Positions 1-48,165 of a DNA stretch of 48,165 nucleotides are shown in pieces. Numbering within the stretch: the stretch's first letter is position 1; each line of letters starts with the position of its first letter. This DNA is from a virus. The DNA lies in the IMG/VR virus record IMGVR_UViG_3300021168_000045, positions 1-48,165 of that record. One strand, written 5' to 3'. Under the pieces are notes generated by a model. That model was given only the letters and a program-made list of their open reading frames with translations, did not search any database and was not told the DNA's origin. Made by a program: the position numbers and the translations under genes.

Positions 1-67
1 TATATAAAAAAAAAAAAAAAAAAAAAATTAAATAAAACCTTCAGAATTGTTAACTTAGGCAGAAATA

Positions 68-93
68 GTTAGTTTAGTCAGATTAAAACTAAC
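68..93 (+). repeat. 8-bp inverted repeat (hairpin)
   Basis: GTTAGTTT (68-75) and AAACTAAC (86-93) are exact reverse complements around a 10-base loop. The TTAGTT core recurs in the divergent region near 46824-46903, so this may be a protein-binding motif and not an RNA hairpin. Confidence 0.5.
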
Positions 94-237
94 AATCCAG
101 CACCCACACCCCCCGTCAAGGATTGGTAGCAAAGATGTAGGGGGCGCATGTGTATGATTCGAGAGGGGATACAAGACATCGCATCCCCCGTATGGAACAC
201 CCGCTCGATGTTGTTCATTCTAAAGACCTTTCAGTGC

Positions 238-266
238 TTGACAACGGTCCCAGAGGGACCGATAAT
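238..266 (+). promoter_or_regulatory. promoter P1 with palindromic spacer
   Basis: TTGACA (238-243), 17 bases, then GATAAT (261-266), a near-consensus sigma70-type promoter. The spacer is almost entirely the palindrome CGGTCCC-AGA-GGGACCG (245-261), with a 7-bp arm and a 3-base centre. Expected transcription start is near 273, leaving about 40 nt before the ATG at 315. Because the palindrome lies upstream of the start it would act as DNA, most simply as an operator; that is inference. Compare 2262-2290 and 6499-6527. Confidence 0.8.
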
Positions 267-314
267 CACTAAGTCAGCACAGTCGCTACGTGACAATTGA
301 GAGAGGTTTTTACA

Positions 315-1016
315 ATGGACAAGGAACAACTTGAGGAGTTTATTAGAAAGCAGTGTAAAGGTAATAATATTAAACAAGTTCAAGATGCTTTGGTCAAGGC
401 GCAATTGATGATATTGGAATTAAAAGAACTTTCTGATGGAAGTTTTACAGCGAAGGTTAAGATTAAGACTTTTGTACTTTACGAAGCGAATCTTAAAAAG
501 AGATTAGTTGAACTTGATAGACGCTCAGTGCGTGCAGATTTAGCACGTGAACGGTATTATGTTCGTAGAAATATGAGTGAGAATAACACTCACGGTCGAG
601 CACGGAATGATCCGAATAACGGTATAATCTACCACGACAATGCATCACAGAAGGTTGTGGATTATATTCGTTCAGGTGGGAACTTAAAAGATTACATTCC
701 GCTTGAAACTGAAGAAGTTGGAGAGCTAGACTATTCAAAATTGCTCTCTCGATCACCAAGCGAAGTGCAACAAGAAACTAAAGTAGATATTGATAAATCT
801 AACCAAACTGAAGAATCGAGTGATATATTCGATTCAATCATGGATAAAACTGTCAAACAGATTGAGTTGGATAAGCCAACGTTTCCGAAGTTTGTACTTG
901 ATTTTACACCGGAAGTAATAACTAAACCAATTGAAGAATCAAAACCAAAACTTGACCTAACAGTCGAGAACATTCAAAAAGCATTGAGAGATGCGGGGTT
1001 GTTTAAAAATAAATAA
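315..1016 (+). CDS. hypothetical early protein, 233 aa
   Basis: I do not recognise this family. The ATG at 315 is preferred over an upstream TTG at 297 because GAGAGG (301-306) sits 8 bases before it and the promoter at 238-266 lies just upstream. The protein is hydrophilic and charged. Residues 1-85 look helical with many Lys, Glu and Arg, the middle holds an Asn/Gly-rich turn, residues 135-180 are acidic and probably disordered, and the last 20 residues look like an amphipathic helix. There is no signal peptide, membrane segment or cysteine cluster. As the first gene after a strong promoter it is probably expressed early and could act on host machinery, but nothing in the sequence shows how. 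Confidence 0.8.
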   Translation: MDKEQLEEFIRKQCKGNNIKQVQDALVKAQLMILELKELSDGSFTAKVKIKTFVLYEANLKKRLVELDRRSVRADLARERYYVRRNMSENNTHGRARNDPNNGIIYHDNASQKVVDYIRSGGNLKDYIPLETEEVGELDYSKLLSRSPSEVQQETKVDIDKSNQTEESSDIFDSIMDKTVKQIELDKPTFPKFVLDFTPEVITKPIEESKPKLDLTVENIQKALRDAGLFKNK

Positions 1017-1027
1017 CGGAGGTGATT

Positions 1028-1120
1028 ATGATAACAGGATGGGGAAAGCCCATCCACTTAACGCGCCTATGGCTAGTCCAAAGTCTAGCAGGAAGAAAGC
1101 GGATGGAGATTGGATATTAA
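1028..1120 (+). CDS. possible 30-aa peptide on a hairpin leader
   Basis: An ATG at 1028 follows GGAGGTGAT (1018-1026), a full complement of the 16S rRNA tail, and opens a 30-codon frame ending at TAA 1118. The first codons lie in a perfect 7-bp hairpin (GGATGGG 1037-1043, CCCATCC 1049-1055). The peptide is basic with Trp and Arg and matches nothing I know. The strong ribosome site argues for translation; the hairpin suggests a regulatory leader instead. Either is possible. Confidence 0.35.
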   Translation: MITGWGKPIHLTRLWLVQSLAGRKRMEIGY

Positions 1121-1121
1121 A

Positions 1122-1229
1122 ATGTTTCACACATTCATTCTGTTCATGTTCTTTGTTTACGGTCCAGTAGTTCATGTTTCAACTCAACCACATAACGACC
1201 ATCGTGGAGCGATTACATGGCATCGGTAA
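1122..1229 (+). CDS. possible 35-aa hydrophobic peptide
   Basis: An ATG at 1122, one base after the previous stop, opens a 35-codon frame that overlaps the next gene by 13 bases. The N-terminus (Met-Phe-His-Thr-Phe-Ile-Leu-Phe-Met-Phe-Phe-Val-Tyr) is strongly hydrophobic, so a membrane peptide is possible. There is no good ribosome-binding site, so expression would need coupling to the preceding frame. Weak call. Confidence 0.3.
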   Translation: MFHTFILFMFFVYGPVVHVSTQPHNDHRGAITWHR

Positions 1230-1441
1230 AGTGGGTCAACCATAATCACGTTGTTACGGGGAAGATTGGCGAAGGGGAGTGGATTCCAGATACGAGATTA
1301 AAATTCATTCCCGGTCGTTTTTCGAGTCCCAATTGTAAACACAAACATCATGTACAGTGTAGTGGAAGATTTCGCATAACGCATGTTGGATTCTTCCAGT
1401 GTACGTGTTCGTGTCATCGGGAGTTCAAAGATGAGAGCTAA
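1217..1441 (+). CDS. small Cys/His-rich protein, 74 aa
   Basis: The C-terminal half carries a metal-ligand pattern: Cys-Lys-His-Lys-His-His, then Cys-Ser-Gly, then Cys-Thr-Cys-Ser-Cys-His. This suggests a compact zinc site from about residue 39 to 68. No family is recognised. Its end overlaps the next gene by 11 bases, which suggests translational coupling. It is one of about ten small cysteine-rich proteins in the rightward arm. Confidence 0.65.
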   Translation: MASVKWVNHNHVVTGKIGEGEWIPDTRLKFIPGRFSSPNCKHKHHVQCSGRFRITHVGFFQCTCSCHREFKDES

Positions 1442-1733
1442 CTGTATTTCATGTGGACAGTTTTACAATCGAGACGAATCGAATGCAATTGATACTTCGC
1501 TCTATTGTACAGTCGATTGTGAAAAATTCGATATCAACCGTCTTGAAGAGGGATTCAAAATAATTGAATCCGCACAACTCAATCAGTATCCAAGTCCAAC
1601 ACTTCAACAACTACAAACTATCGCAACGGTTAGAGCGCAGGTTGTTCCTTCGGGAATTAAAACAACCATGACTACACCGTCAATCGAACGAGTGTTCAAA
1701 CCAATTGGGGATGATAATCAGTTTGAAGAGTAG
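1431..1733 (+). CDS. small zinc-finger-like protein, 100 aa
   Basis: The start is set at ATG 1431 because GGGAG (1419-1423) lies 7 bases upstream; a longer reading from 1383 would lie mostly inside the previous gene. The N-terminus has Cys-Ile-Ser-Cys at about residues 5-8 and Cys-Thr-Val-Asp-Cys around 27-31, which together could bind one zinc as a treble-clef-like finger. The remainder is polar and probably disordered, with Pro/Thr-rich stretches. It ends in TAG, so amber works as a stop here. Confidence 0.7.
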   Translation: MRANCISCGQFYNRDESNAIDTSLYCTVDCEKFDINRLEEGFKIIESAQLNQYPSPTLQQLQTIATVRAQVVPSGIKTTMTTPSIERVFKPIGDDNQFEE

Positions 1734-1793
1734 CGCGAGCGTAGCGAGCTATTGCACCTTAAAGTCTTGCAGTATCAATATTAACTTGTACCG

Positions 1794-1812
1794 CAGGTGC
1801 AGTAGGCACCTG
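1794..1812 (+). repeat. hairpin upstream of GTG-start gene
   Basis: CAGGTGC (1794-1800) and GCACCTG (1806-1812) form a perfect 7-bp stem with a 5-base loop. It ends 18 bases before the AGGAG site of the next gene, so it would lie in that gene's leader. No T tract follows, so it is not a classical terminator. Confidence 0.6.
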
Positions 1813-1841
1813 AAAGTAACACGCATTTACAGGAGTGACTT

Positions 1842-2042
1842 GTGTTGGTTAAAGTTTATAAGTGTGATCAATGTGGAGTTGAGGAGAAAGAGCCGAATGG
1901 GTGGTTTGTGGTGAGTAAAATCAGCTCCGAAAATAAGTTTGTAATCGAACCTTGGTTCGAGGATGAAATCTATTATCATCACGAACTTTGTGGTCTTCCA
2001 TGTGTTTTTAAGAAGATTAGCGAATTAAACACAGCGATTTAG
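1842..2042 (+). CDS. small CxxC protein, 66 aa
   Basis: It starts with GTG at 1842, set by AGGAG (1831-1835) six bases upstream. The pattern is Cys-Asp-Gln-Cys at residues 8-11, then a β-rich middle (Trp-Phe-Val-Val, Phe-Val-Ile-Glu-Pro-Trp), then His-His-Glu-Leu-Cys and Cys-Val-Phe. Four cysteines plus two histidines suggest a zinc-ribbon fold, as in many short phage proteins of unknown role. The gene is followed at once by the structured non-coding stretch 2047-2239. Confidence 0.75.
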   Translation: MLVKVYKCDQCGVEEKEPNGWFVVSKISSENKFVIEPWFEDEIYYHHELCGLPCVFKKISELNTAI

Positions 2043-2046
2043 GCTG

Positions 2047-2192
2047 TGTCAGTTACGCGAGTAGTTTACATGTGTGCAACGTAATCGATAATCGGGCAGT
2101 AGAATTAATGCACTCAGAGACAAGCGAGTACAAGGGCATGTACGTAATAAGCGAGTCGTTGAAGCCTAGTTATCAGCTTTGCGTAACTGACA
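2047..2192 (+). ncRNA. candidate structured RNA closed by a 12-bp helix
   Basis: TGTCAGTTACGC (2047-2058) and GCGTAACTGACA (2181-2192) are exact reverse complements and would close a 122-nt interior. Inside are GTAC pairs flanking AAGGGCAT and two AAGCGAGT copies. No open frame here looks coding. A 13-base part of the right arm, GTAACTGACAGAA (2183-2195), recurs at 2926-2938 just before the next terminator. It could be a free small RNA or a long 3' end structure; no promoter of its own is visible. Confidence 0.45.
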
Positions 2193-2239
2193 GAACTTAA
2201 ATAGCTAGCTAGCGATTTAGTTCTAGTGGCTTCGCCACT
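2193..2239 (+). repeat. two consecutive hairpins
   Basis: GAACTTAAAT (2193-2202) pairs with ATTTAGTTC (2215-2223) with one bulged base. Next to it AGTGGC (2225-2230) pairs with GCCACT (2234-2239) over a TTC loop. The second stem is followed by GAAAAAA, not by T, so neither is a standard rightward terminator. They lie between the structured element and promoter P2. Confidence 0.6.
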
Positions 2240-2261
2240 GAAAAAATGTACGAAAGTAACC

Positions 2262-2290
2262 TTGACAACTTTCGTTCGAAAGGTTACTCT
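2262..2290 (+). promoter_or_regulatory. promoter P2 with palindromic spacer
   Basis: A perfect TTGACA (2262-2267), a 17-base spacer and TACTCT (2285-2290). The spacer contains the inverted repeat CTTTCG-TT-CGAAAG (2269-2282), centred between the two boxes. Just upstream CGAAAGTAACC repeats part of the same motif. Expected start is near 2297, which makes an ATG at 2299 almost leaderless and favours the start at 2350 for the downstream gene. The -10 box is weak, so activation or repression by a spacer-binding protein is plausible. Confidence 0.7.
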
Positions 2291-2315
2291 CTTAATAGAT
2301 GTACGAACTTCAACC

Positions 2316-2330
2316 AAGGGCTACGCCCTT
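2316..2330 (+). promoter_or_regulatory. leader hairpin just before an SD
   Basis: AAGGGC (2316-2321) and GCCCTT (2325-2330) form a perfect 6-bp stem with a TAC loop, three bases before AGGAG (2333-2337). It lies in the predicted leader of the 2350 gene. Such a hairpin could stabilise the mRNA or keep the ribosome site open. Confidence 0.6.
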
Positions 2331-2349
2331 ACAGGAGCGCAACAATAAT

Positions 2350-2922
2350 ATGTCCACTTCAAGTGTTATCACTGATCTCGCAATCAAGCCGTATAACGAA
2401 GATTATCGCGTTTACGCAGTAATCGCCCAAGATGGTAAGATTGACGCGACCAAGACGAAGTTTACTACTGCTGGGAAGGATGGGAAGATTTGGGAAGGAT
2501 TGTCGAATGATCCCACGTACACGCAGGCAGTTGAAGTAACTGTTCGTGGGTATAAGGTTTCGTCCGAGGATGGTTTTGTTGAGCTTGTTCCCGACAAGGA
2601 TGAGCGAGTTAACATGATCAATCAAGCAATCGCAGCGAAGCTTAATCGTAAGCTCGGTGCGACTTTGAAGGAAGTTGATGATGCGGGTACAAATTTTGTA
2701 TTCGATCCCGCGACAGAAGCTTCTGATGGTATTTTTGATACACTTCCGCTTTTGCGTGAAGCAACCCAACGTCGTTCTTTGACGGAACAAGAAAAGCAAC
2801 TTCGTGCTTTGAAGGTTGCATTCCCGACAATGGACGAGTCCGTACTTCTTGCAACTTTGCAGGCTCTTATGAACTCGGGAGCTTTGCAGTCGCAGGTGGC
2901 GGAAGAGGTTGGGGCGGAGTAA
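2350..2922 (+). CDS. hypothetical early protein, solitary transcription unit, 190 aa
   Basis: No family is recognised. The start at 2350 follows AGGAG (2333-2337) at a long 12-base spacing; an ATG at 2299 is less likely because it falls at the predicted transcription start. Residues 10-80 look β-rich and suggest a small barrel or sandwich, with aromatic and Lys residues. Residues 140-190 are helical (a Leu-rich amphipathic run). The gene has its own promoter, leader hairpin and strong terminator, and its codons are richer in G and C than those of its neighbours. This is the arrangement expected of an abundant early protein, for example a DNA-binding protein, but the role is inference. Confidence 0.8.
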   Translation: MSTSSVITDLAIKPYNEDYRVYAVIAQDGKIDATKTKFTTAGKDGKIWEGLSNDPTYTQAVEVTVRGYKVSSEDGFVELVPDKDERVNMINQAIAAKLNRKLGATLKEVDDAGTNFVFDPATEASDGIFDTLPLLREATQRRSLTEQEKQLRALKVAFPTMDESVLLATLQALMNSGALQSQVAEEVGAE

Positions 2923-2935
2923 TTTGTAACTGACA

Positions 2936-2975
2936 GAAGCGGGTAGACCAACAAACTACCCGCTTCCTTTTCTTT
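2936..2975 (+). terminator. intrinsic terminator
   Basis: GAAGCGGGTAG (2936-2946) and CTACCCGCTTC (2956-2966) form an 11-bp GC-rich stem with a 9-base loop, followed by CTTTTCTTT. It lies 13 bases after the stop of the 190-aa gene and should end that transcript. The 13-base sequence before it repeats 2183-2195. Confidence 0.9.
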
Positions 2976-2983
2976 GTATATTG

Positions 2984-3063
2984 CTACCAACACTCAATAC
3001 GATTGGATAAGTCATATAAAACTAAGTATGACTATCGTAGCTAGTGGCGAGTGTTGGTAGGAG
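2984..3063 (+). promoter_or_regulatory. 77-nt long-hairpin leader touching the SD
   Basis: Three nested helices are exact. CTACCAACACTC (2984-2995) pairs with GAGTGTTGGTAG (3049-3060); TACGAT (2998-3003) pairs with ATCGTA (3034-3039); AGTCATA (3010-3016) pairs with TATGACT (3027-3033). That makes 25 base pairs in one irregular hairpin. The outer helix includes the first two bases of the AGGAG site (3059-3063) of the next gene. It could gate translation of the 3073-6357 cassette, or be a processed small RNA. A TATATT at 2977-2982 could be a -10 box, but no -35 is seen. Confidence 0.7.
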
Positions 3064-3072
3064 TATATTAAG

Positions 3073-3297
3073 ATGGCAAATTACGTAGAAGTTTATGTGT
3101 ATGATCCTAAATTGACAATGAGAGTTGATATTAGATGCACTGAAGTTATCGGTCCAAACACAAGTTGGTATAGTTGTGGTAACTGTGGAGCCAAGATTTA
3201 CCTAGGAATATCTACACAACAACTCTGTACTGGTTGTGGATTTGTGGTTTATGTAAAACACTACACTTCTAATGGACCAACTCAAACTGGTAGCTAG
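3073..3297 (+). CDS. zinc-ribbon protein, 74 aa
   Basis: Two CxxC knuckles (Cys-Gly-Asn-Cys about residues 36-39 and Cys-Thr-Gly-Cys about 54-57) with β-prone residues between them define a zinc ribbon. The N-terminal 30 residues form a likely β-hairpin. AGGAG (3059-3063) lies 9 bases before the ATG and partly inside the leader hairpin. It ends in TAG at 3295. The same frame then stays open for 45 codons and continues into the J-domain gene at 3433, so this may be the N-terminal part of a 310-codon frame with one internal amber codon. No enzymatic function is visible. Confidence 0.8.
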   Translation: MANYVEVYVYDPKLTMRVDIRCTEVIGPNTSWYSCGNCGAKIYLGISTQQLCTGCGFVVYVKHYTSNGPTQTGS

Positions 3298-3432
3298 TCA
3301 GCAAATATAACTGCTACTGGTGCAAATGCACAACGACAACAATTTTCACAGAAATTCTACAGTAATCCACAAGCTAATTCTTACAGCCAAGCAGTTTGGA
3401 ACGCCTATACCAACAAGAGTGGAGGTGATCGT

Positions 3433-4005
3433 TTGTACTTGCATTATGAACATGCAACAATCAACGGAAACTTGAACGTTACCGGAGTTCTCTTTTCCTC
3501 CGATCGTAACAAATACTACGCAACTTCTCGCGACTACGAAACCATCAAAACTTTCGTAGCCATGATCAAAACAACCATCCCTTCAACAAAACGTACATAC
3601 GATCCCACTACGAAGATTTGGATTATTCCAACAACGAGTTATGATGTATTAGCGAAGTTGTTTGAATCGAATGGTTCTAACTGTGTTGTTAAGCACGATA
3701 GTCTCGAAGATTGGTTAAAAGGCACGGAAGATTCTTCAACAAAGGAAATTCCCAAGAAACCCGAAGATTTCTTCTACAACACACAACAACCCACAACTAC
3801 AGCTTCAACGTGGACTCTCGATGATTTAGAAAAACAACTCGCAACGATGCTCCAGTTATCACTAGACGAGTTTAAACTTGCTGATCGTCGGGCAATAATG
3901 AAAAAAGCCTCCAAACTCCACCCCGACTTTAACAACGGTGACGGATCGAAGTTTTCGGAATTTACACAACGATACACAGAATATAAGAAATTAGTAGGAG
4001 CTTAA
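3433..4005 (+). CDS. protein with C-terminal J-domain-like HPD region, 190 aa
   Basis: The TTG at 3433 is chosen because GGAGGTGAT (3421-3429) is a full anti-16S match; the frame is also open upstream to the TAG at 3295. Residues 25-80 resemble a small α/β module seen in HARP-type proteins (Arg-x-Tyr-Asp-Pro, Trp-x-Ile-Pro, Tyr-Asp-x-Leu). Residues 128-190 look like the core of a J domain: a helix, then Lys-Leu-His-Pro-Asp with the HPD triad at 163-165, then a Lys/Phe-rich helix. J domains stimulate DnaK ATPase, so a link to host Hsp70 is the natural inference. A linker rich in Thr, Gln and Pro separates the parts. It is followed by a VWA protein and an FtsK-like motor. Confidence 0.75.
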   Translation: MYLHYEHATINGNLNVTGVLFSSDRNKYYATSRDYETIKTFVAMIKTTIPSTKRTYDPTTKIWIIPTTSYDVLAKLFESNGSNCVVKHDSLEDWLKGTEDSSTKEIPKKPEDFFYNTQQPTTTASTWTLDDLEKQLATMLQLSLDEFKLADRRAIMKKASKLHPDFNNGDGSKFSEFTQRYTEYKKLVGA

Positions 4006-4017
4006 GGAGTATTAAAA

Positions 4018-4791
4018 ATGGCCTTCACGCCAAAATCAAACCCAACATCTCTCGCTTCAATCTTGGCGAAAAATCGCCAGGAAAAACCGGATGCTCTCGC
4101 GCAAAGTGAATCCAAAATCGAAAAAGCACCCGTTGTCCTAAATCAAGACCCTGCTAAAGCGACTGAGCGGCTCAGAATTGTATTCGACGACTCAGGCTCA
4201 ATGCACGGACAGCAGATTGAAGACGCAAAAGCGGGTTGTATTGAGTTTATGCGTAATTGCATCCCGAATGAGACTGCGTGTGCTGTGCATCCGATGAGTG
4301 TTTATGATGATACTGGTTATTTTAATAAATCGATGGCACCAGCTATCATGACGGATTTAACTATCGATCTTCCAAGTTTGTCACAAGAAATAGCTAAAAT
4401 TACTGACACGGGTGGCACCCCGCTTTTTGCAACCTTGCGCGCTGCATTAACATGCCAGCCAAAACTAACTCGCGCAATAGTATTCTCCGACGGGAGTCCA
4501 AATGGAGATGATCTTCAATTGAAAGACCAAACTATAACTCAGGCACAGGAACAGAAGATTCCAGTGGATACAGTTTATATCACCCAGCACTATGTAAACA
4601 ACACCGACTACCCCGATCCCGCTTATCGTCTTTTGAAAGAAATCGCAGACAAAACTGGTGGTTACTGTCTTGTATTCGACAAGAACAAAGTTAACTTCAA
4701 AGATGCATTTAAGTGGCTTGCACCCAAACTTCGCTTGGCACTTTCAGACGGCAACGTCAGACAACAACTTCAGGATGGGAAACTAAAATGA
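4018..4791 (+). CDS. von Willebrand factor A domain protein, 257 aa
   Basis: A VWA domain with an intact metal-ion-dependent adhesion site. Asp-Asp-Ser-Gly-Ser (57-61) gives the DxSxS motif, Thr-Gly-Gly-Thr-Pro near 135 gives the conserved Thr, and Phe-Ser-Asp-Gly-Ser near 160 gives the second Asp. Residues 1-50 are a Lys/Ala/Gln-rich tail, probably disordered. The layout resembles cytoplasmic TerY-like VWA proteins more than secreted adhesins, as there is no signal peptide. AAGGAG precedes the ATG. The end overlaps the next gene (ATGA). Bacterial VWA proteins often work beside AAA+ ATPases as assembly or disassembly factors; here the partner could be the FtsK-like ATPase two genes on (inference). 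Confidence 0.9.
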   Translation: MAFTPKSNPTSLASILAKNRQEKPDALAQSESKIEKAPVVLNQDPAKATERLRIVFDDSGSMHGQQIEDAKAGCIEFMRNCIPNETACAVHPMSVYDDTGYFNKSMAPAIMTDLTIDLPSLSQEIAKITDTGGTPLFATLRAALTCQPKLTRAIVFSDGSPNGDDLQLKDQTITQAQEQKIPVDTVYITQHYVNNTDYPDPAYRLLKEIADKTGGYCLVFDKNKVNFKDAFKWLAPKLRLALSDGNVRQQLQDGKLK

Positions 4792-5207
4792 CCACTCCCA
4801 ACTTCAATGATTTCAAAAATCAACCCTTTGACTTTCAGAATAACCAATTCAACTTAACACAGGAAGAAATTACTAAACTACATAAAACCTATGTAGATAA
4901 AGTAATGTACTATCGCGAAATAAAAAAGAAACAATTCGCTGATGCTCAAGACAAACACGCTTGGGCTTTTTCAGCAGTAGTCAATGCAATCGTAAATCTC
5001 TGGACAGTTGGTGCGGATTATATTGATCCGGAAGCTAATAAATATGAACGTCCAGATGTTTCAATTTTGGCATGGGTACTACTATCAAACTCTACAAACA
5101 TGCTTCTTAATTTCGCGATAGATGCTTCTATTTTTGGCCTTTTCGCCAAGAAAGAAATCGAAAAGCAAAAAGAAGTTGAGGAATTGAATAAGATGGTACA
5201 GGAGTAA
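4788..5207 (+). CDS. hypothetical protein with two hydrophobic segments, 139 aa
   Basis: The start is the ATG at 4788 in an ATGA overlap with the VWA gene; a longer frame from 4713 lies inside that gene. Residues 1-60 are polar and helical. Hydrophobic stretches near 62-83 (rich in Ala, Val, Trp) and near 93-120 (Leu, Val, Ile, Phe) could be membrane-associated helices or a buried helical hairpin. A Lys/Glu-rich helix ends the protein. It lies tightly between VWA and FtsK-like genes. FtsK itself has membrane helices while the neighbour here lacks them, so this could supply a membrane anchor; speculative. Confidence 0.75.
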   Translation: MTTPNFNDFKNQPFDFQNNQFNLTQEEITKLHKTYVDKVMYYREIKKKQFADAQDKHAWAFSAVVNAIVNLWTVGADYIDPEANKYERPDVSILAWVLLSNSTNMLLNFAIDASIFGLFAKKEIEKQKEVEELNKMVQE

Positions 5208-5208
5208 C

Positions 5209-6357
5209 ATGGAGCTTTCACAACTTACTCCCGAACAACAATCAACAATAACAGCTCTTTCTCTTAAAATGGGATCACTCTCTTTCTACGCTAAATTCAC
5301 TCACGTCGAGACTGGTCCCATTATTACGCAATATTACTTTAAGCCAACTCCAACATCTCAGCTAAACAAGATTATGACTAAAACCGAAGACCTTGCCCTC
5401 TGCGTGGGTGTTGAATCCCTGATAATCCAAAGGCAACTAGATGAAATCTCAATTTCCGTACCCAATCGCGTTCGCACTACGATTAAATTCGATTCCTGTT
5501 TGCAGTGGTTATCAACTGATCCTTCGGCTAATTTGGCAAAACTTCCCTTACTCATGGGTCAAACACCCACAGGTAATAATTTCACTCTTGACTTGGCTAC
5601 ACAACCCCATATTCTTATCGCTGGGAGTACTGGCAGTGGGAAGTCTGTTTTTCTTTCCCAGCTCATCACAAGTTTGGCAGTACAACGAAGTCCCGACGAA
5701 TTAAAGTTAATCTTGGTGGACACGAAACAACTTGATCTCACACTGTTTTCTTCACTCGATCACGTAACAGAGATGGTCGATAAGATCGACCAACTTTACG
5801 ATGTAATGGATGCGCTATTGCGCGAAGTACGTAAACGAACAGAAACTATGAAAGGAATTTGTCGTAATATCGGTGAGTGGAACTCGATGGGGTATGGAAA
5901 GCAGTTTCCATATTATGTTCTTGTAATTGACGAACTCGCTGATGTTATTGGACAAGATAAGGAAAATGCCAAAACAGAAGATAAAGATAGTCGAAGAATC
6001 AGAATTAGCGATTCGATTAAATCTTTGGCACAAATCAGTAGAGCTTCAGGTATCCATATTATCGCGGCAACTCAAAGACCTTCAATCAAAGTTATCGATG
6101 GTGATATTAAAACAAACTTCCCAACAAGAATCAGTTTCAGGCTTCCCACAGGATTTGATTCACGAGTTATATTGGACGAAATCGGAGCTGAATCGTTGCT
6201 TGGAAAGGGTGATTACTTATACAGAACTGCTCAATCAAGTACCACTATCCGTGCCCACGGATCATTCGTAACGATGGAGGATATTGGGTTAGTTTTGAGT
6301 CAGCATGAATATATTAGGGAAAGTTTTAGATTTCAGAGAGAACAAATAAATAAGTGA
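5209..6357 (+). CDS. FtsK/SpoIIIE-type DNA translocase ATPase, 382 aa
   Basis: The α and β motor domains of FtsK are readable end to end. The α-like part is residues 1-110, with Val-Pro-Asn-Arg before the core. Walker A Gly-Ser-Thr-Gly-Ser-Gly-Lys-Ser is at 139-146, Walker B is Val-Leu-Val-Ile-Asp-Glu-Leu-Ala-Asp near 243-251, the Ala-Thr-Gln-Arg-Pro-Ser signature near 286, and Leu-Gly-Lys-Gly-Asp near 340. It lacks the N-terminal membrane helices and the C-terminal γ winged helix that reads KOPS, so it is a soluble minimal motor of about 380 residues. This family pumps double-stranded DNA as a hexamer. It is separate from the terminase, so a second role such as DNA entry, segregation or conflict with host DNA is open. 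Confidence 0.95.
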   Translation: MELSQLTPEQQSTITALSLKMGSLSFYAKFTHVETGPIITQYYFKPTPTSQLNKIMTKTEDLALCVGVESLIIQRQLDEISISVPNRVRTTIKFDSCLQWLSTDPSANLAKLPLLMGQTPTGNNFTLDLATQPHILIAGSTGSGKSVFLSQLITSLAVQRSPDELKLILVDTKQLDLTLFSSLDHVTEMVDKIDQLYDVMDALLREVRKRTETMKGICRNIGEWNSMGYGKQFPYYVLVIDELADVIGQDKENAKTEDKDSRRIRISDSIKSLAQISRASGIHIIAATQRPSIKVIDGDIKTNFPTRISFRLPTGFDSRVILDEIGAESLLGKGDYLYRTAQSSTTIRAHGSFVTMEDIGLVLSQHEYIRESFRFQREQINK

Positions 6358-6382
6358 ATTTTGGCCTTCAGCGCTTCGTAGG

Positions 6383-6442
6383 GTGTCTACAGCGCGTAGA
6401 CGCATTAGGAGCCATCCTCGCCCTATCGACCCGTCCTAGGGC
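6383..6442 (+). repeat. hairpin cluster after the FtsK-like gene
   Basis: In the 228-base gap 6358-6585, GTCTAC (6385-6390) pairs with GTAGAC (6396-6401), extendable by a G-T and a G-C pair, and GCCCTA (6420-6425) pairs with TAGGGC (6437-6442). CCTAGG-type palindromes follow. No T tract follows either stem, so termination is possible but not shown. The rest of the gap is the P3 promoter and leader. Confidence 0.55.
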
Positions 6443-6498
6443 ATCCTAGGCTCAGTGACGGGGGTATCTGATAGCAGAGAAAGACCTTACAAGACACT

Positions 6499-6527
6499 TG
6501 ACAAGGGGGTATACCCCCTGTACCCTA
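6499..6527 (+). promoter_or_regulatory. promoter P3 with perfect palindromic spacer
   Basis: TTGACA (6499-6504), 17 bases, TACCCT (6522-6527). The first 16 spacer bases are the perfect palindrome AGGGGGTATACCCCCT (6505-6520). The -10 box has the same TACyCT form as P2. Expected start is near 6534, about 50 nt before the ATG at 6586, and would transcribe the replication cluster. The symmetric spacer is the best operator candidate of the three promoters. Confidence 0.75.
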
Positions 6528-6585
6528 GGGAGAGTAGCACCCCCTGTCCCAACCGCTAACAAATTATCTAAGGACCAAGACTACC

Positions 6586-6795
6586 ATGTGGACAAAAGAA
6601 ATACCAAAAGAACCGGGGTTTTATTTCTTTAAGGAAGAAGGATATGCGCCTTCAATAGTACAGTTAGAGGCTTCACAATTTTCAAATACTTTAAAAGTAG
6701 TATTCATGGACAATACCCAAATAGAAAAATGGTCTGATTTAAACATTAAGTACTGGCTCCCCGCAATCGAATTCCCCGATAACCATGCCAAGTAA
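6586..6795 (+). CDS. small hypothetical protein, 69 aa
   Basis: The first gene after P3, with AGGA (6571-6574) 11 bases before the ATG. The pattern Trp-x3-Ile-Pro-x-Glu-Pro-Gly-Phe-Tyr near the N-terminus, a central β region and Tyr-Trp-Leu-Pro-Ala near the end resembles short phage proteins of the general DUF551-like style, which are predicted β folds of unknown role. There are no cysteines or membrane segments. It overlaps the next gene by 11 bases. Confidence 0.7.
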   Translation: MWTKEIPKEPGFYFFKEEGYAPSIVQLEASQFSNTLKVVFMDNTQIEKWSDLNIKYWLPAIEFPDNHAK

Positions 6796-6997
6796 AAAGA
6801 CCGACATTCTCTCAATTCGCATCAACGCATTCCATCGAATGATGCTACGAGTACATCCATACAAAGAAAACTCCGGTGTACTCGTAAGATTACTCTTGGA
6901 TGCTTTTTTCAAGGATGAACTTCCATTAGTCAAGATGAAGTTTATGCAAGAAGTTAATAGAAAGAACACAAATCTCAAACTAAAGAAAGGTGCGTAA
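6785..6997 (+). CDS. possible ribbon-helix-helix protein, 70 aa
   Basis: Residues 8-14 (Ile-Leu-Ser-Ile-Arg-Ile-Asn) could be the β-strand of a ribbon-helix-helix fold. Two helices around 15-24 and 30-43 and a basic tail (Lys-Lys-Gly-Ala) would follow. The size and charge suit a small DNA-binding regulator, and no other candidate transcription factor is obvious in the genome apart from the small terminase. The conserved turn is not clear, so this is a structural guess. If right, it could be one of the proteins that read the palindromic promoter spacers. Confidence 0.6.
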   Translation: MPSKKTDILSIRINAFHRMMLRVHPYKENSGVLVRLLLDAFFKDELPLVKMKFMQEVNRKNTNLKLKKGA

Positions 6998-6999
6998 AA

Positions 7000-7683
7000 G
7001 TGTCCGATGACATTAACATCAACGGATCGAAAGTTGTTAGCGAAGATAACAGCGGTACACTGGGCGAGGTGTCTCAGGCACCAAAAGAACAACGAAAATT
7101 ATGCGAAGTCTGTATTGAAGATAACCTTATTTCAAAAGTTGGCATCATTCGTTGTGAGAGATGCCATGAATCATTTTGTATACACTTCGCTTCTAGTATT
7201 GATCCTCAGTCTTGTTGCTTCTGCTTACATGATGTATCGGTGACGGTGGATACAATCCATAAAACTACTGAACACTACAACGAAGAAACTGATACAGTTA
7301 CAACGAAAACGAGAAAAGCTAAAAGCATAAAACTCGGTGGAATGCATTGGCTTTTTGTACAACGTAAAATTCGTGATCTCTCCGATGCCGAACTCGAAGT
7401 CGCAATCGAATACCACCACGCAATACACGATGGGATGATTCTTGAACGTGACCAGCGAAGAATCGAACACTTCCATCGTAACGCCGGGAAGAAATTCGTT
7501 CCACCAACTTCTGTTACTTCTGGAACTGAAACTACCGAGACGGTTATAACCAAAAAGACCCGTACAACCAAGATCAAAACTCCCAATGCACCAGAGATTA
7601 ACGCTACTGCGGTGTTGCAGTCGTTGTTGAAGAGTGGGATGAGTTTAGAGCAAATAGCTAAAATGATTGCGGGGAAGAAATGA
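7000..7683 (+). CDS. Cys-rich N-terminal zinc module protein, 227 aa
   Basis: GTG start at 7000, with AAAGAAAGG upstream. Residues 34-78 hold eight cysteines: Cys-Glu-Val-Cys, Cys-Glu-Arg-Cys-His, Phe-Cys-Ile-His, then Cys-Cys-Phe-Cys. This spacing fits a RING- or treble-clef-like two-zinc module. A Thr/Lys-rich linker follows (90-110), then a charged helix with His residues (115-160), a second Thr/Lys-rich linker, and a C-terminal helix (205-227). I recognise no family. The modular look suggests a nucleic-acid or protein adaptor. It overlaps the following small gene as ATGA. Confidence 0.8.
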   Translation: MSDDININGSKVVSEDNSGTLGEVSQAPKEQRKLCEVCIEDNLISKVGIIRCERCHESFCIHFASSIDPQSCCFCLHDVSVTVDTIHKTTEHYNEETDTVTTKTRKAKSIKLGGMHWLFVQRKIRDLSDAELEVAIEYHHAIHDGMILERDQRRIEHFHRNAGKKFVPPTSVTSGTETTETVITKKTRTTKIKTPNAPEINATAVLQSLLKSGMSLEQIAKMIAGKK

Positions 7684-7850
7684 GAAATCCTCGATTGACA
7701 AATGGTCTTGGTTATGATCTTTTTAAACTCCCCATCAACGAACTAACTCTCGAACAAAGAGTCCAAGTTCTAGAAATCCGAGTCGATACTTTAATGATCC
7801 TACTGGATGATCCTAATGTTCCGAAAGATAAACCAACAGACACCATTTAA
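7680..7850 (+). CDS. small coiled-coil-like protein, 56 aa
   Basis: The ATG at 7680 overlaps the previous stop (ATGA), and the frame runs 56 codons to TAA 7848. After a polar N-terminus, residues 20-45 form a Leu/Val/Ile heptad-like helix (Leu-Thr-Leu-Glu-Gln-Arg-Val-Gln-Val-Leu-Glu), so a short coiled coil is likely. No family recognised. The coupled start and clean frame support it. Confidence 0.6.
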   Translation: MRNPRLTNGLGYDLFKLPINELTLEQRVQVLEIRVDTLMILLDDPNVPKDKPTDTI

Positions 7851-7989
7851 ATGCGGGCATCAACGAACAGAAGAAAATACCTATACACAAACAGTACGAC
7901 GTTGCAAATGTTGTTGGAAAGAACATATGAAGTTAAAGATGCGAACCAGAAAGGCAAAAGATGAGAACAAAAGAAGAAATGATCTTTGA
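7807..7989 (+). CDS. HNH-associated zinc motif protein, 60 aa
   Basis: Residues 15-40 read Cys-Gly-His-x5-Glu-Asn-Thr-Tyr, then Cys-Lys-Cys-Cys, followed by a basic tail. This matches the C-terminal zinc motif of the HNH endonuclease at 13348-13797 (Gly-His-x4-Glu-Asn-Thr-Tyr, Cys-Lys-Ile-Cys), but the HNH catalytic part is absent. It may be a remnant of a homing endonuclease or a free DNA-binding zinc protein. It overlaps the previous frame by 44 bases and the nuclease gene by 29. The start could also be the ATG at 7816. Confidence 0.6.
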   Translation: MILMFRKINQQTPFKCGHQRTEENTYTQTVRRCKCCWKEHMKLKMRTRKAKDENKRRNDL

Positions 7990-8983
7990 TTGGGCTGAGA
8001 AATTACATTGGATTAAGCTCGACGCTAATGGAACACCGGAGTTCTATTTAGACAACCACATGATGCAAACTTTCCGCGCTTGTGAAGCTAAGTTCTGGCA
8101 TGAGTTCGTAGAAGGATGGAGTGGATCAGGGAGAGTCTGGTTCTTAGACTTTGGAATTATAACTCATAAATGCATCGAACAATATTACCTCGACCGAAAG
8201 AAACCCGGCTTTGATATCTTCCAATGGGCAGGTGCTTATGCACGTTCGGAGTGGGATAAACTCGACATGGATGGTGAGTACAGTACGCATCCTGATTATA
8301 CTAAACTGGGTGGTTTTGGTGGTTTTGCTGCAATGTTATGTCAATACGCACAACATTTCAACGCTGAGAATGAGCGGTTTCGAGTTATTGGCGCTGAGTT
8401 GTATTTCGGTAAGTCTAAAGAAGTCCCACTTCTCGACAATCATCTCGCTTTCGAGTTTGCTCCTTTTAGGCTGTATCTTAGTGGGAAGATTGATCTTTTG
8501 GTAGATGATGGACATTCCATAGGACCGATGGATCACAAAACAGCTCGTGATTTTAGAGGCGGTAATCCAATGGCCAGTTATGAAGTACAAGAAGGGATGA
8601 CTGGTTATGTTTTTGCGGCAAAGAAGATAATTGAAAATATCCAAGGAATCGATCGTAAACCTTGCAATAAAATTTGGATGAATTTTATCCAAGTTAAAGG
8701 CGAGAAAGTTCTTGGGGATCGCTTCAAGCGTATGCCTTTGTATAAGTCAGATGCAGAGTTGGAAGATTATCGACTAAGAATGATCTCGACAGTTTCGAGA
8801 ATCTACCAACTTTTAACTAATCCAGAACTCAAACCTAATTGGAACACGATGATGTGTAACAATTATATGCACAATACTTGCGCATTTCAAGCTGTACATC
8901 GACAGAAAGATGCACAATCACAGTTATTGGTGCTTCAAAGTCAGTTCGTGAAAAAAGAAATTTGGAATCCGGAGAAGATATAA
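7961..8983 (+). CDS. PD-(D/E)XK nuclease, RecB/Cas4-like, 340 aa
   Basis: RecB-family nuclease motifs in order: His69 in Ile-Thr-His-Lys, Asp178 in Gly-Lys-Ile-Asp, Asp191-His-Lys193 as the D-x-K pair, and Gln210-x5-Tyr216 as the QxxxY-type motif. An N-terminal Arg-Ala-Cys-Glu (39-42) and C-terminal cysteines occur, but not the clear four-cysteine iron-sulfur set of Cas4. Phages use such nucleases for end resection in recombination. It lies 570 bases before a Sak4-like ATPase, and together they could form a recombination pair. The stop overlaps the next start as TAATG. Confidence 0.9.
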   Translation: MRTKEEMIFDWAEKLHWIKLDANGTPEFYLDNHMMQTFRACEAKFWHEFVEGWSGSGRVWFLDFGIITHKCIEQYYLDRKKPGFDIFQWAGAYARSEWDKLDMDGEYSTHPDYTKLGGFGGFAAMLCQYAQHFNAENERFRVIGAELYFGKSKEVPLLDNHLAFEFAPFRLYLSGKIDLLVDDGHSIGPMDHKTARDFRGGNPMASYEVQEGMTGYVFAAKKIIENIQGIDRKPCNKIWMNFIQVKGEKVLGDRFKRMPLYKSDAELEDYRLRMISTVSRIYQLLTNPELKPNWNTMMCNNYMHNTCAFQAVHRQKDAQSQLLVLQSQFVKKEIWNPEKI

Positions 8984-12232: not shown

Positions 12233-13360
12233 ATGGCCACTCCATCAATAGTCCATCAATCATCAATAAATCCAAAAGGAAGCCCAAGTGCTCCGGTTTG
12301 GGTAATCATAGAACAACCATACGAACAAGACAAAGACAAAGGCTACTGCTTCTCAGGTTCCTACGGTTTCATCTTTCACAAAATGATGCTTGAAGCAGGG
12401 CTGACTGATTATTACGTATGTTCTCGTCGCCCTGAATTGACTAATCGTTCAACGTTTGCAATTCTCGAAAACGACCTAAACTACTTTAAGCCCCCAATAA
12501 TCATAACCCTTGAAGAAGCTGGGAAGCATTTCTGTAAAGAACTCGAAAAGAAAGTAATCAAAGGCGCTAAAACTGATGAAGAACATACTTCAGATATTGA
12601 AAAAATAGCAGGATCACTTTTAATATCGCCTAAATTAAATTATTCACATTATATAATACCAACTTATTCTCCACATAATATAGCAAAAGATTGGAGTATG
12701 AGAGATATTATAGTGTCTCTAGACCTAGGCAAAGCTAAAAGTGAGCTTGATTATTTTAAAAGATATGGAAATCTAGAGGCGTTGCCCATTAGAAATTTAG
12801 AAATTGATTTTGACGATTATGATAAACTATTACAGTGTTTCAAAAGATTTGAACAAGCACAATATCTATCTACAGATATTGAAACTATTTATCCGAGTAA
12901 AAAATCAATATACTGGCCTCATCCAGGCGAAGTTGTTACTGTAGGTTTAGCAGATGGTCCAGATTTTGGAATTTCTTTTGAATTATATAGAAAAGATAAA
13001 ACCGAAACACTAGATATGTGGCAAAGATTAGATAAGCTTCTGCATGATAAATTAATTATAGGTCAAAATTTTTTTAATTTTGATTTATCGAGATTTGAAG
13101 CTTATGGTTTTGATATACCATTTGAGAATATCTATGATACTTTAATTCGTCACCATATTTTGTGGCCGGAACTGAAACATGCTTTACAATTCCAAACACG
13201 ACAATATACTCGACAACCTTACTATAAGGATGAAGCACATGGTTGGTCAATTAAGAATATGAAACAATTGAAGCATTATAACTGTTTAGATGTAACAGTT
13301 ACTTATGAAATCTTTTTAAAACAAGAGGAGGAGTTTAAAGATAGACCATGGTTAATTTAG
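12233..13360 (+). CDS. UDG-like plus 3'-5' exonuclease part of a split DNA polymerase, 375 aa
   Basis: Residues 20-165 look like a uracil-DNA-glycosylase-like domain of the type that leads some phage family A polymerases (Val-Trp-Val-Ile-Ile-Glu-Gln-Pro, then Gly-Ser-Tyr-Gly). Residues 205-365 are a DEDDy exonuclease: Asp215-Ile-Glu217, Gly-Gln-Asn-x3-Phe-Asp near 280-287, and Tyr-Asn-Cys-Leu-Asp near 350. The chain ends just where the polymerase domain should begin. That domain is encoded separately at 14150-15658, after an HNH gene that starts inside this gene's last codons. From about 12590 the codons turn much more A+T-rich (AGA, ATA, TTA), marking a mosaic join near the domain border. 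Confidence 0.85.
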   Translation: MATPSIVHQSSINPKGSPSAPVWVIIEQPYEQDKDKGYCFSGSYGFIFHKMMLEAGLTDYYVCSRRPELTNRSTFAILENDLNYFKPPIIITLEEAGKHFCKELEKKVIKGAKTDEEHTSDIEKIAGSLLISPKLNYSHYIIPTYSPHNIAKDWSMRDIIVSLDLGKAKSELDYFKRYGNLEALPIRNLEIDFDDYDKLLQCFKRFEQAQYLSTDIETIYPSKKSIYWPHPGEVVTVGLADGPDFGISFELYRKDKTETLDMWQRLDKLLHDKLIIGQNFFNFDLSRFEAYGFDIPFENIYDTLIRHHILWPELKHALQFQTRQYTRQPYYKDEAHGWSIKNMKQLKHYNCLDVTVTYEIFLKQEEEFKDRPWLI

Positions 13361-14000: not shown

Positions 14001-14172
14001 GCAGATTCTTCTACAGTTGGATTACATATCGAACCAGCCGACAATTCAACTTCAGAATAACGTAACCTCAATGCTCCGATCCGCAGGTCAGAATCTTCTT
14101 AGTTATCACCAATTAACTGAACAAAGGTTGGAGGAGCTGGAAAAAGTGAATGGAAAGCAGAATAACAAATAG
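13900..14172 (+). CDS. hypothetical helical protein, 90 aa
   Basis: The ATG at 13900 follows GGAG (13891-13894) at five bases. The first 25 residues are polar and disordered (Ser/Asn/Glu/Gln), then two or three helices with Leu and Gln follow, ending in a Lys/Asn tail. No family recognised. It overlaps the polymerase start by 23 bases, so it is probably coupled to it, and it separates the HNH gene from the polymerase domain gene. Confidence 0.65.
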   Translation: MTVSNNSVESESNPQKQDVLLPKDLKEERGRYFRQILLQLDYISNQPTIQLQNNVTSMLRSAGQNLLSYHQLTEQRLEELEKVNGKQNNK

Positions 14173-15658
14173 TTATCTTCACAAACTCCAAGCCATCTAT
14201 CACAAGATAGATGCGCGAGGTATTTGTATTGATCCTGAAAGACATAAAGAAGCACGGATTTTTATCGATCAAGAAATAACACGGAATCTTAAAATTGCAT
14301 CAGACCAATGGGGTTGTCATGTGTTTATTGGTGCAGACAATAAAGATAACTCAGAAGGCGAAGTTAACCTAAACGCCACACAGGGAGAAAAACAGCTCCT
14401 CAAGAAGCTCCAAGATCTCGGTTACAAAGTCCCGAAAATCGCTAAAAAGAACGAAGAAGGTGATTATGAATCAAAATACTCAACTGGAGAGCTTGCGCTC
14501 CAAAAAATGCTTGTCGCAAACCAATTCAACTATAGCGGAGGCGATCCAGCAATACGAGCAATATTGCAAGTACGGGAACTTGGGAAACTTAAAAGCAGTT
14601 ATTTCAATTGTAGATTGTACCGAAATACTTCGGGCAATTTGCTCTATCTCTCTAATTATAACGCGGCAGGAACAACTTCTGGACGCCGTAGTTCAAGAAA
14701 ACATACATTCGGTTATGGGAATAATGCGCAGAACTTTCCTAAACATGGAAAACTCGCAAAAACATTTCGGAGATGTTTAGTTGCTAGACCAGGGAATATA
14801 TTTTTGATGGTAGATCAAAAAAGCGCGGAAGAGTGGCCCGTTAGTGCTCTTTCGGCTAATATGAGAGCTATTAATGAAATGCTACTCGGAGTTAACCGCC
14901 ATATTCGTAGAGCTAGTTCAATCTTCGGCATTCCAGAATCTTCCAGAACTGAGAAACAATGGAAAGATTCGCTTGAGTATTACCTCGGAAAGAAAACAGG
15001 GCACGCTAATAACTACGGTATGCGTGAACGGAGAATGTCGGATTCACTTGCGCAGGAAGGTCATTCAATAAAACCGGAAGTTTGTGCGGCATTGTTGGCG
15101 AAGTTAAATCTTCTTGAACCCGAAATTGATGGAGTGTTTCATAAATATGTTAAAGACCAAATCAACACATCGAGAATACTTAGAACTCCTTTTGGTCGCG
15201 AACGTCAGTTTCTCGGCTTACGTCCTAATGACTCTAACTATAAGATATTTAATGAAGCCTATGCCTATATTCCTCAGTCTGTCGTTGGGGATAATACCGG
15301 CTTCGCTATTAGTTGCTTGGAAATGGCTAACTGTCAGCAGGTTGTACAAGAAGGCCATGATTCAATCGTTCAAGACATCGTATTGGACCCTGCTAGCATT
15401 TGGGAAAATCTCTCACGTACAGTATTGGCTTTTGATCGAGAAATTAGATTCCATAATGGGATCGTAGTTAATATTCCGATTGAAGCTGAGTTGGGATTTG
15501 ATTTTAATGAGACTGTGAAGATTAAAGATCTGAGCTACGATGGCGTATTAGAAGCATACAAGAAAATCTTGCTGATAAGAGAAGAAGAAATCGAAAAAGA
15601 AAATGAAAAAAGACAGCAACAAACTCTTCAAGACTTAGCTTCGTCGATCGGGGCATAA
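14150..15658 (+). CDS. family A DNA polymerase, polymerase domain only, 502 aa
   Basis: Carries the palm and fingers of a PolI-type polymerase. Motif A is Asp222-Gln-Lys-Ser-Ala-Glu-Glu-Trp (the metal Asp in place of the usual DYSQIE), motif B is Lys281-Lys-Thr-Gly-x4-Tyr289-Gly290, and motif C is Gly402-His403-Asp404-Ser405, where family members often have HDE. Thr-Ser-Gly-Arg-Arg-Ser near 182-188 matches the pre-motif-A primer-grip segment. There is no exonuclease in the chain; it is encoded at 12233-13360. Two proteins would have to associate to act as a replicative polymerase with proofreading. The C-terminal 40 residues are a Glu/Lys/Gln-rich helix. Confidence 0.95.
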   Translation: MESRITNSYLHKLQAIYHKIDARGICIDPERHKEARIFIDQEITRNLKIASDQWGCHVFIGADNKDNSEGEVNLNATQGEKQLLKKLQDLGYKVPKIAKKNEEGDYESKYSTGELALQKMLVANQFNYSGGDPAIRAILQVRELGKLKSSYFNCRLYRNTSGNLLYLSNYNAAGTTSGRRSSRKHTFGYGNNAQNFPKHGKLAKTFRRCLVARPGNIFLMVDQKSAEEWPVSALSANMRAINEMLLGVNRHIRRASSIFGIPESSRTEKQWKDSLEYYLGKKTGHANNYGMRERRMSDSLAQEGHSIKPEVCAALLAKLNLLEPEIDGVFHKYVKDQINTSRILRTPFGRERQFLGLRPNDSNYKIFNEAYAYIPQSVVGDNTGFAISCLEMANCQQVVQEGHDSIVQDIVLDPASIWENLSRTVLAFDREIRFHNGIVVNIPIEAELGFDFNETVKIKDLSYDGVLEAYKKILLIREEEIEKENEKRQQQTLQDLASSIGA

Positions 15659-46575: not shown

Positions 46576-46604
46576 AGTATGCTCCCTTCGGGCTGGCGTG
46601 TCAA
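46576..46604 (-). promoter_or_regulatory. late leftward promoter
   Basis: Read leftward: TTGACA (46604-46599), a 17-base spacer and CATACT (46581-46576), which has four of six -10 matches. It faces the whole structural operon. The spacer has only a 3-bp CCC-GAA-GGG inverted repeat, unlike the three rightward promoters. It is the only strong promoter-like site seen for leftward genes. Confidence 0.7.
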
Positions 46605-47984: not shown

Positions 47985-48165
47985 TTGGGGGAAGGGTTGG
48001 TCGAGAGATTGACGCCTGATTCTAGGCGTCTTCTCTATCCTTACCCCAGCCGCCAGGGCGAAAGTAGCTAACCCCTTTAAAACCACTCTCTTCGCTCCAA
48101 CTACTCCCTGCTACATGGTATTGACGGGGGGTACCGCTGTCCCTTAATGGTATTAAAAAAAAAAA
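47985..48165. other. non-coding right end with poly(A)
   Basis: Apart from the terminator-like stem, this holds C-rich and G-rich tracts, a TTGACG (48121-48126) with CTTAAT 16 bases later that might be a weak promoter, two ATGGTATT copies (48115 and 48147), and a terminal run of 11 A. No gene is seen. Confidence 0.6.
48011..48036 (+). terminator. intrinsic terminator
   Basis: GACGCCT (48011-48017) and AGGCGTC (48024-48030) form a 7-bp stem with a 6-base loop, followed by TTCTCT. It lies about 26 bases after the stop of the last gene and should end the 47103-47984 transcript. Confidence 0.8.

Follow-up and report, generated by a model that had tools for sequence, protein, structure and literature searches.

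An inverted repeat in the spacer of a promoter-like sequence as a candidate operator in an undescribed phage group

A perfect inverted repeat fills the spacer of a promoter-like sequence, here termed P1, near the left end of a virus record of 48,165 bases, raising the question of whether it is an operator, a hairpin or a product of base composition. The record, analysed over its full length and referred to as the window, encodes a portal, a terminase, an FtsK-like protein, an exonuclease, a split DNA polymerase and a primase; its source is an uncultured soil-type phage belonging to an undescribed phage group. A DNA-level search with window positions 1-8000 found no relative in the phage collection, where the closest terminase, at 25% identity or less, represents no close relative, and a search for a host in genome contigs found nothing. 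IMG/VR, by contrast with the phage collection, holds around 60 relatives of the FtsK-like protein. In the approximately 60 relatives fetched, promoters with TTGACA and a -10 box recur at the positions of P1 and of two further window promoters, P2 and P3, and the gene order is kept: the left part comprises P1 and the first gene, P2 and a gene of around 190 aa, a VWA-like gene and FtsK, while P3 is followed by a small gene, a putative zinc-ribbon gene, the exonuclease and the polymerase. The window features relevant to the question are:

222-230, plus strand: 9-mer AAAGACCTT, common to the region upstream of P3 (6480-6488)
238-243, plus strand: -35 box of P1, TTGACA, with the same box at the matching place in relatives L008, L010 and L012
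245-261, no strand assigned: P1 dyad CGGTCCC-AGA-GGGACCG, in the spacer; a putative private operator
261-266, plus strand: -10 box of P1, GATAAT, which is also found in L008 and L012
315-1016, plus strand: first rightward gene, an ORF starting 49 bp past the P1 -10 box and most likely driven by P1
2262-2290, plus strand: P2, TTGACA-ACTTTCGTTCGAAAGGT-TACTCT, with a different dyad; precedes the conserved gene at 2350-2922
6498-6526, plus strand: P3, TTGACA-AGGGGGTATACCCCCTG-TACCCT, with a dyad centred on GTATAC
6785-6997, plus strand: small gene downstream of P3 for a ribbon-helix-helix-like protein, which is a candidate autorepressor of that promoter and not of P1
48011-48030, plus strand: terminator-like hairpin GACGCCT-GATTCT-AGGCGTC, seen in the sequence, closing the rightward genes at the right end

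The anatomy given for P1 in the initial annotation matches the sequence exactly: TTGACA is separated from GATAAT by a spacer of 17 bp (244-260), and the dyad at 245-261 is a perfect 7-3-7 repeat, the last G of which doubles as the first base of the -10 box. TTGACA-N17-GATAAT, with one mismatch and a spacing within 16-18 bp, has the form of a sigma70-type promoter, and the dyad overlaps the polymerase contact region, as is characteristic of an operator within a spacer. An arm of at least 7 bp occurs in around 0.05% of shuffles of the P1 spacer (approximately 1 in 2000, a probability of about 0.0005), and the dyad as single-stranded DNA has a computed folding energy of -7.9 kcal/mol (z -4.5). 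Two further descriptions also proved accurate, namely that the -10 box of P1 is the strongest of the three (one mismatch in GATAAT, as opposed to three each in the TACTCT of P2 and the TACCCT of P3) and that the dyad centre is shifted by 1.5 bases, being 15 bases away from the first -35 base in P1 but 13.5 in both P2 and P3. A pattern search permitting up to three mismatches detected no other good copy of the P1 dyad in the 48,165-base window.

Ahead of the first rightward gene, TTGACA-N17/18-(GATAAT or TATACT) is also present in L008 (237), L012 (583) and L010 (L043:4808). Because the boxes are conserved at the equivalent place in these three relatives, P1 is likely to be a real promoter, and its earlier designation as the promoter of the first rightward genes gains support from the sequence comparison. 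The protein encoded by the first of these genes (315-1016) had no relative in IMG/VR by protein search, and a single weak, partial match to it was found, in G018. In L008 and L010, the P1-equivalent promoter lies around 200 bp past a poly-A tract. The poly-A that both starts and ends the window, approximately 200 bp upstream of P1, is probably internal to the genome, given the terminal repeat in G001 (the record of L008) and the reading of L010 across the tract. As the poly-A appears to be internal and the terminator-like hairpin at 48011-48030 ends the preceding genes, P1 probably opens a transcription unit. The tract itself, around 20-26 bases in length, is found at 1-40 and 48155-48165 of the window, at 4594-4620 of L043 (L010) and on the minus strand at 107-128 of L044 (L008); its position approximately 200 bp upstream of P1 is conserved between the window, L010 and L008, and contigs tend to break there.

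The dyad fares differently from the boxes. L010 keeps the P1 boxes with a dyad of at most 4 bp, L008 has ATCCCC-N9-GGGGAT, and the dyad of L012, GCGCC-TAAG-GGTGC, extends to only 5 bp, one of them a G.T pair. The P1 dyad sequence was found in none of the approximately 60 relatives fetched; it is a single copy, neither repeated in its own genome nor kept in L008, L010 or L012. In the initial annotation, a conserved dyad was taken to define P1, and the retention of the boxes with loss of the dyad was named as an outcome that would count against this. Such an arrangement is found in L010, and that part of the description is not supported, the expectation of a stable family trait being wrong for the P1 dyad. 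A candidate P1 operator core, CCC-N3-GGG, was also dropped: CCC-N3-6-GGG is present in 4 of 21 P1-type spacers, against 0.3 expected, a weak pattern picked after the fact.

When the promoter group is considered as a whole, spacer dyads are in excess. Arms of at least 6 bp are found in 6 of 31 orthologous promoter spacers where shuffling gives 0.2, and arms of at least 5 bp in 9 of the same 31 where it gives 1.3; in a test sliding along the DNA, this excess peaks solely when the frame is set exactly on the spacer. The spacers are GC-rich, with a mean of 59%, and 15 of 60 distinct spacers fold with a z below -2. A clear dyad is lacking from most of the group's spacers, and in some relatives the repeat instead extends across the -10 box, its loops measuring 8-28 nt. 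Selection on an RNA-level hairpin was rejected, as folding of the top and bottom strands did not differ (p 0.41) and there was no sign that read-through RNA is selected. Spacer hypervariability was likewise rejected as a general rule, being seen in the pairs L012/L014 and L026/L030 and absent across 46 flank-matched pairs.

P2 and P3 both have spacers of 17 bp, each containing a dyad unlike that of P1, and the earlier grouping of P1 with two further dyad-spacer promoters, here at 2262 and 6498, is supported. At P3, 12 of 29 spacers contain GTATAC (with up to one mismatch) where 0.9 would be expected, and all 41 upstream promoters of the P1 and P2 types lack it; over whole P3 regions it is found in 9 of 24, random windows having a mean of 0.8 and a maximum of 4. 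Counted from the -35 box, many of the sites in P3 regions lie near -22, -11, +10/11 and +20 to +22, approximately whole helical turns, those at +22 in L018 and L078 being in part the -10 box TATACT itself. In the close pair L012 and L014, a spacer half-site, GGTGTAC, is displaced by exactly 10 bp, while GTACACC, its partner, and the small gene alongside are both kept. A subgroup of P2 spacers, 6 of 26 against 0.04 expected, contains CGCC-N4-GG(C/T)G. Hence the same dyad sequence is kept in relatives in part for the P3 and P2 classes, unlike P1. The form CGCC-GNRA-GGC(T)G was observed in P2 spacers at L054 1066, L059 3589, L063 318, L064 6462 and L076 6238, the four-base loops being GAGA, GAAA, GCGA and GCAA, all of the GNRA form.

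These distributions bear on how many regulators are involved. That one dimeric regulator would be unlikely to serve all three promoters, as had been proposed, agrees with the restriction of the GTATAC-like core to P3 spacers, and a single shared regulator was rejected because promoters within one genome share hardly more than CTTGACA. The best reading is that the dyads are promoter-specific, with one putative operator type per promoter, the cores resembling operators. The boxes, the dyad, the conserved promoter positions, the surplus of dyads in spacers, the cores specific to each promoter and the gene beside P3 were all shown by computation; the activity of P1, its repression and the identity of its regulator, for which no good candidate emerged, are inferred. 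P1 is judged to be probably a sigma70-type early promoter with a spacer operator for such a repressor, each early promoter having an operator of its own. Host RNA polymerase of the sigma70 type would start the rightward gene set from P1, and a homodimeric DNA-binding protein on the dyad would keep the polymerase out by occupying the spacer together with the margin of the -10 box. As operator type differs between the promoters, the three could be shut off separately. Counting against the operator reading are the absence of the P1 dyad from L010, its alteration in L008 and L012 and its single copy, as well as the failure to find a regulator and the scarcity of clear dyads among the group's spacers.

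Two genes had been suggested to encode the P1 regulator, and neither is retained in that role. The small gene at 6785-6997 fits P3 instead, its orthologues following P3 in relatives as the first or second gene after it, and the gene at 7000-7683 is a conserved putative zinc-ribbon gene without a link to the dyads. The model of the 6785-6997 protein has helices at 15-21, 30-42 and 47-69; a ribbon-helix-helix fold was not confirmed with Pfam, NCBIfam or PDB, and a fold search returned no structural match. The best ribbon-helix-helix profile match, to Pfam RHH_1, was weak (E 0.05) and was obtained with the L078 orthologue. The P3 operator is probably read by this ribbon-helix-helix-like protein encoded just downstream, whose binding would result in autoregulation. 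Comparison of ten window proteins with Pfam revealed no cognate P1 repressor.

The arrangement itself, an early phage promoter whose spacer contains an operator, is a known one. In the lambda promoters pL and pR, the operators OL1 and OR1 lie in the spacer and reach the -10 box, and bound repressors block polymerase; P1 resembles these in being a putative strong sigma70 early promoter with a candidate spacer operator reaching the -10 box. It differs in that its dyad is a perfect 7-3-7 repeat, further upstream and in one copy, in that each window promoter has a dyad of its own, and in that no CI- or Cro-like protein was identified. P3 resembles the operators of autoregulated ribbon-helix-helix repressors of the CopG/Arc type, having a palindromic spacer core next to a small ribbon-helix-helix-like gene and some sites at approximately helical-turn spacing, although neither profile nor structure searches confirmed the fold of the P3-linked protein and the likeness is not applicable to P1. 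Promoters with spacer hairpins switched by supercoiling were reportedly selected in the laboratory by Horwitz and Loeb in 1988, and these share with P1-P3 a hairpin-capable inverted repeat between the -35 and -10 boxes. Those promoters are of laboratory origin, as is the engineered rrnB promoter with the N4 hairpin, whereas the cores at P2 and P3 here are conserved in sequence.

Two alternatives dispense with a repressor at P1. It is unlikely that the P1 dyad is functionless, GC-rich spacers yielding chance inverted repeats that template switching during replication then perfects. The mean GC content of the spacers and the many orthologues without a dyad are what this predicts; against it, shuffles keeping composition give 0.2 rather than the 6 observed, the excess has its centre in the spacer rather than in adjoining DNA, and the P3 cores are conserved in sequence. 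A hairpin switch gated by supercoiling, the main functional rival and rated as quite unlikely, would leave each dyad free in sequence, since only pairing matters. The promoter would be on while the DNA is relaxed and freshly injected, its spacer forming a normal helix; supercoiling of the genome by gyrase would then extrude the dyad as hairpins, displacing the -35 and -10 boxes and turning the promoter off. There is an engineered precedent: insertion of the N4 P1 hairpin between the two boxes of an rrnB promoter abolished activity, which was restored by gyrase inhibition (PMC4496689). Stems of 5-7 bp and loops of 3-6 are enough for spacer hairpins (PMC6060812, in which Horwitz and Loeb are cited). 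The three window promoters could form hairpins with stems and loops of 7/3, 5/4 and 6/4, and the arms differ between promoters. In L026 and L030, which share 99% identity around P2, the arms also change in concert: both arms of the dyad differ and the neighbouring genes do not, which is not expected of a sequence-specific operator. Yet P3 and P2 carry conserved sequence cores needless for pairing alone, many relatives have no spacer hairpin, elsewhere the repeat extends over the -10 box with its loops of 8-28 nt, and at P2 the hairpin is a weak one (-2.2 kcal/mol, z -0.3). A natural family of early promoters in phages, with supercoil-extruded spacer hairpins selected for pairing and not sequence, is considered distinctly improbable; were it real, the shift of the injected DNA from a relaxed to a supercoiled state would time the early genes, with no repressor involved.

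Two other known promoter types place a dyad or hairpin at such a site. In the MerR layout the dyad likewise sits between the -35 and -10 boxes, and the bound dimer realigns them, these promoters requiring a spacer of 19-20 bp. None of P1-P3 has such a spacer: theirs, at 17 bp, are already optimal, and those of relatives measure 16-18 bp in scans limited to 15-19. As none of the ten window proteins compared with Pfam was MerR-like either, activator dependence of this type is very improbable. A hairpin promoter for a virion RNA polymerase of the N4 type is scarcely credible: the 7 bp stem and 3 nt loop of P1 fit the N4 hairpin shape, but a polymerase of around 3500 aa is missing from the record, the largest ORF being 1249 aa with no Pfam match, loop and stem sequences are not the same in P1, P2 and P3, and the dyads lie between good sigma70 boxes.

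Should the operator reading of P1 be correct, three promoters under separate regulation, with fast-evolving operators in their spacers, would control the early genes of an undescribed lineage of soil-type phages. Orthologous promoters of near-identical phages would then provide ready pairs for studying changes in operator specificity, and could show directly whether spacer hairpin extrusion is used by any natural promoter.

Several further sequence features were observed. Within the 99% identical block, the P2 spacer and the matching downstream arm differ strongly between L030 (4121) and L026 (6432), both versions keeping an inverted repeat with perfect arms of 9-13 bp around the -10 box. Long inverted repeats at L010 1563-1675 and L016 7299-7340, with perfect arms of 17 and 16 bp respectively, have their first arm starting at the -10 box of P2 and the second within the P2 gene leader. 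Immediately upstream of the P2 gene, L008 2915-3020 contains a long inverted repeat (TCTCTTCACCCTATA-ATTC / GAATATAGGGTGAAGAGA) with another nested in it, which may form a structured leader. At the P3 position of L009 (1665-1720), a 14 bp inverted repeat, TTTGTGGATGTACG/CGTACATCCACAAA, precedes a small HNH-type endonuclease-like gene. On the minus strand of the window at 46604, a promoter-like sequence, TTGACA-CGCCAGCCCGAAGGGAG-CATACT, may drive leftward genes, and a similar site with CATACT and an upstream TATATATGG is found on the minus strand of L035 at 4057. The DNA polymerase is encoded by two separate ORFs, at 12233-13360 and 14150-15658 of the window, which are around 0.8 kb apart there, adjacent in L014 and at other distances in other relatives.
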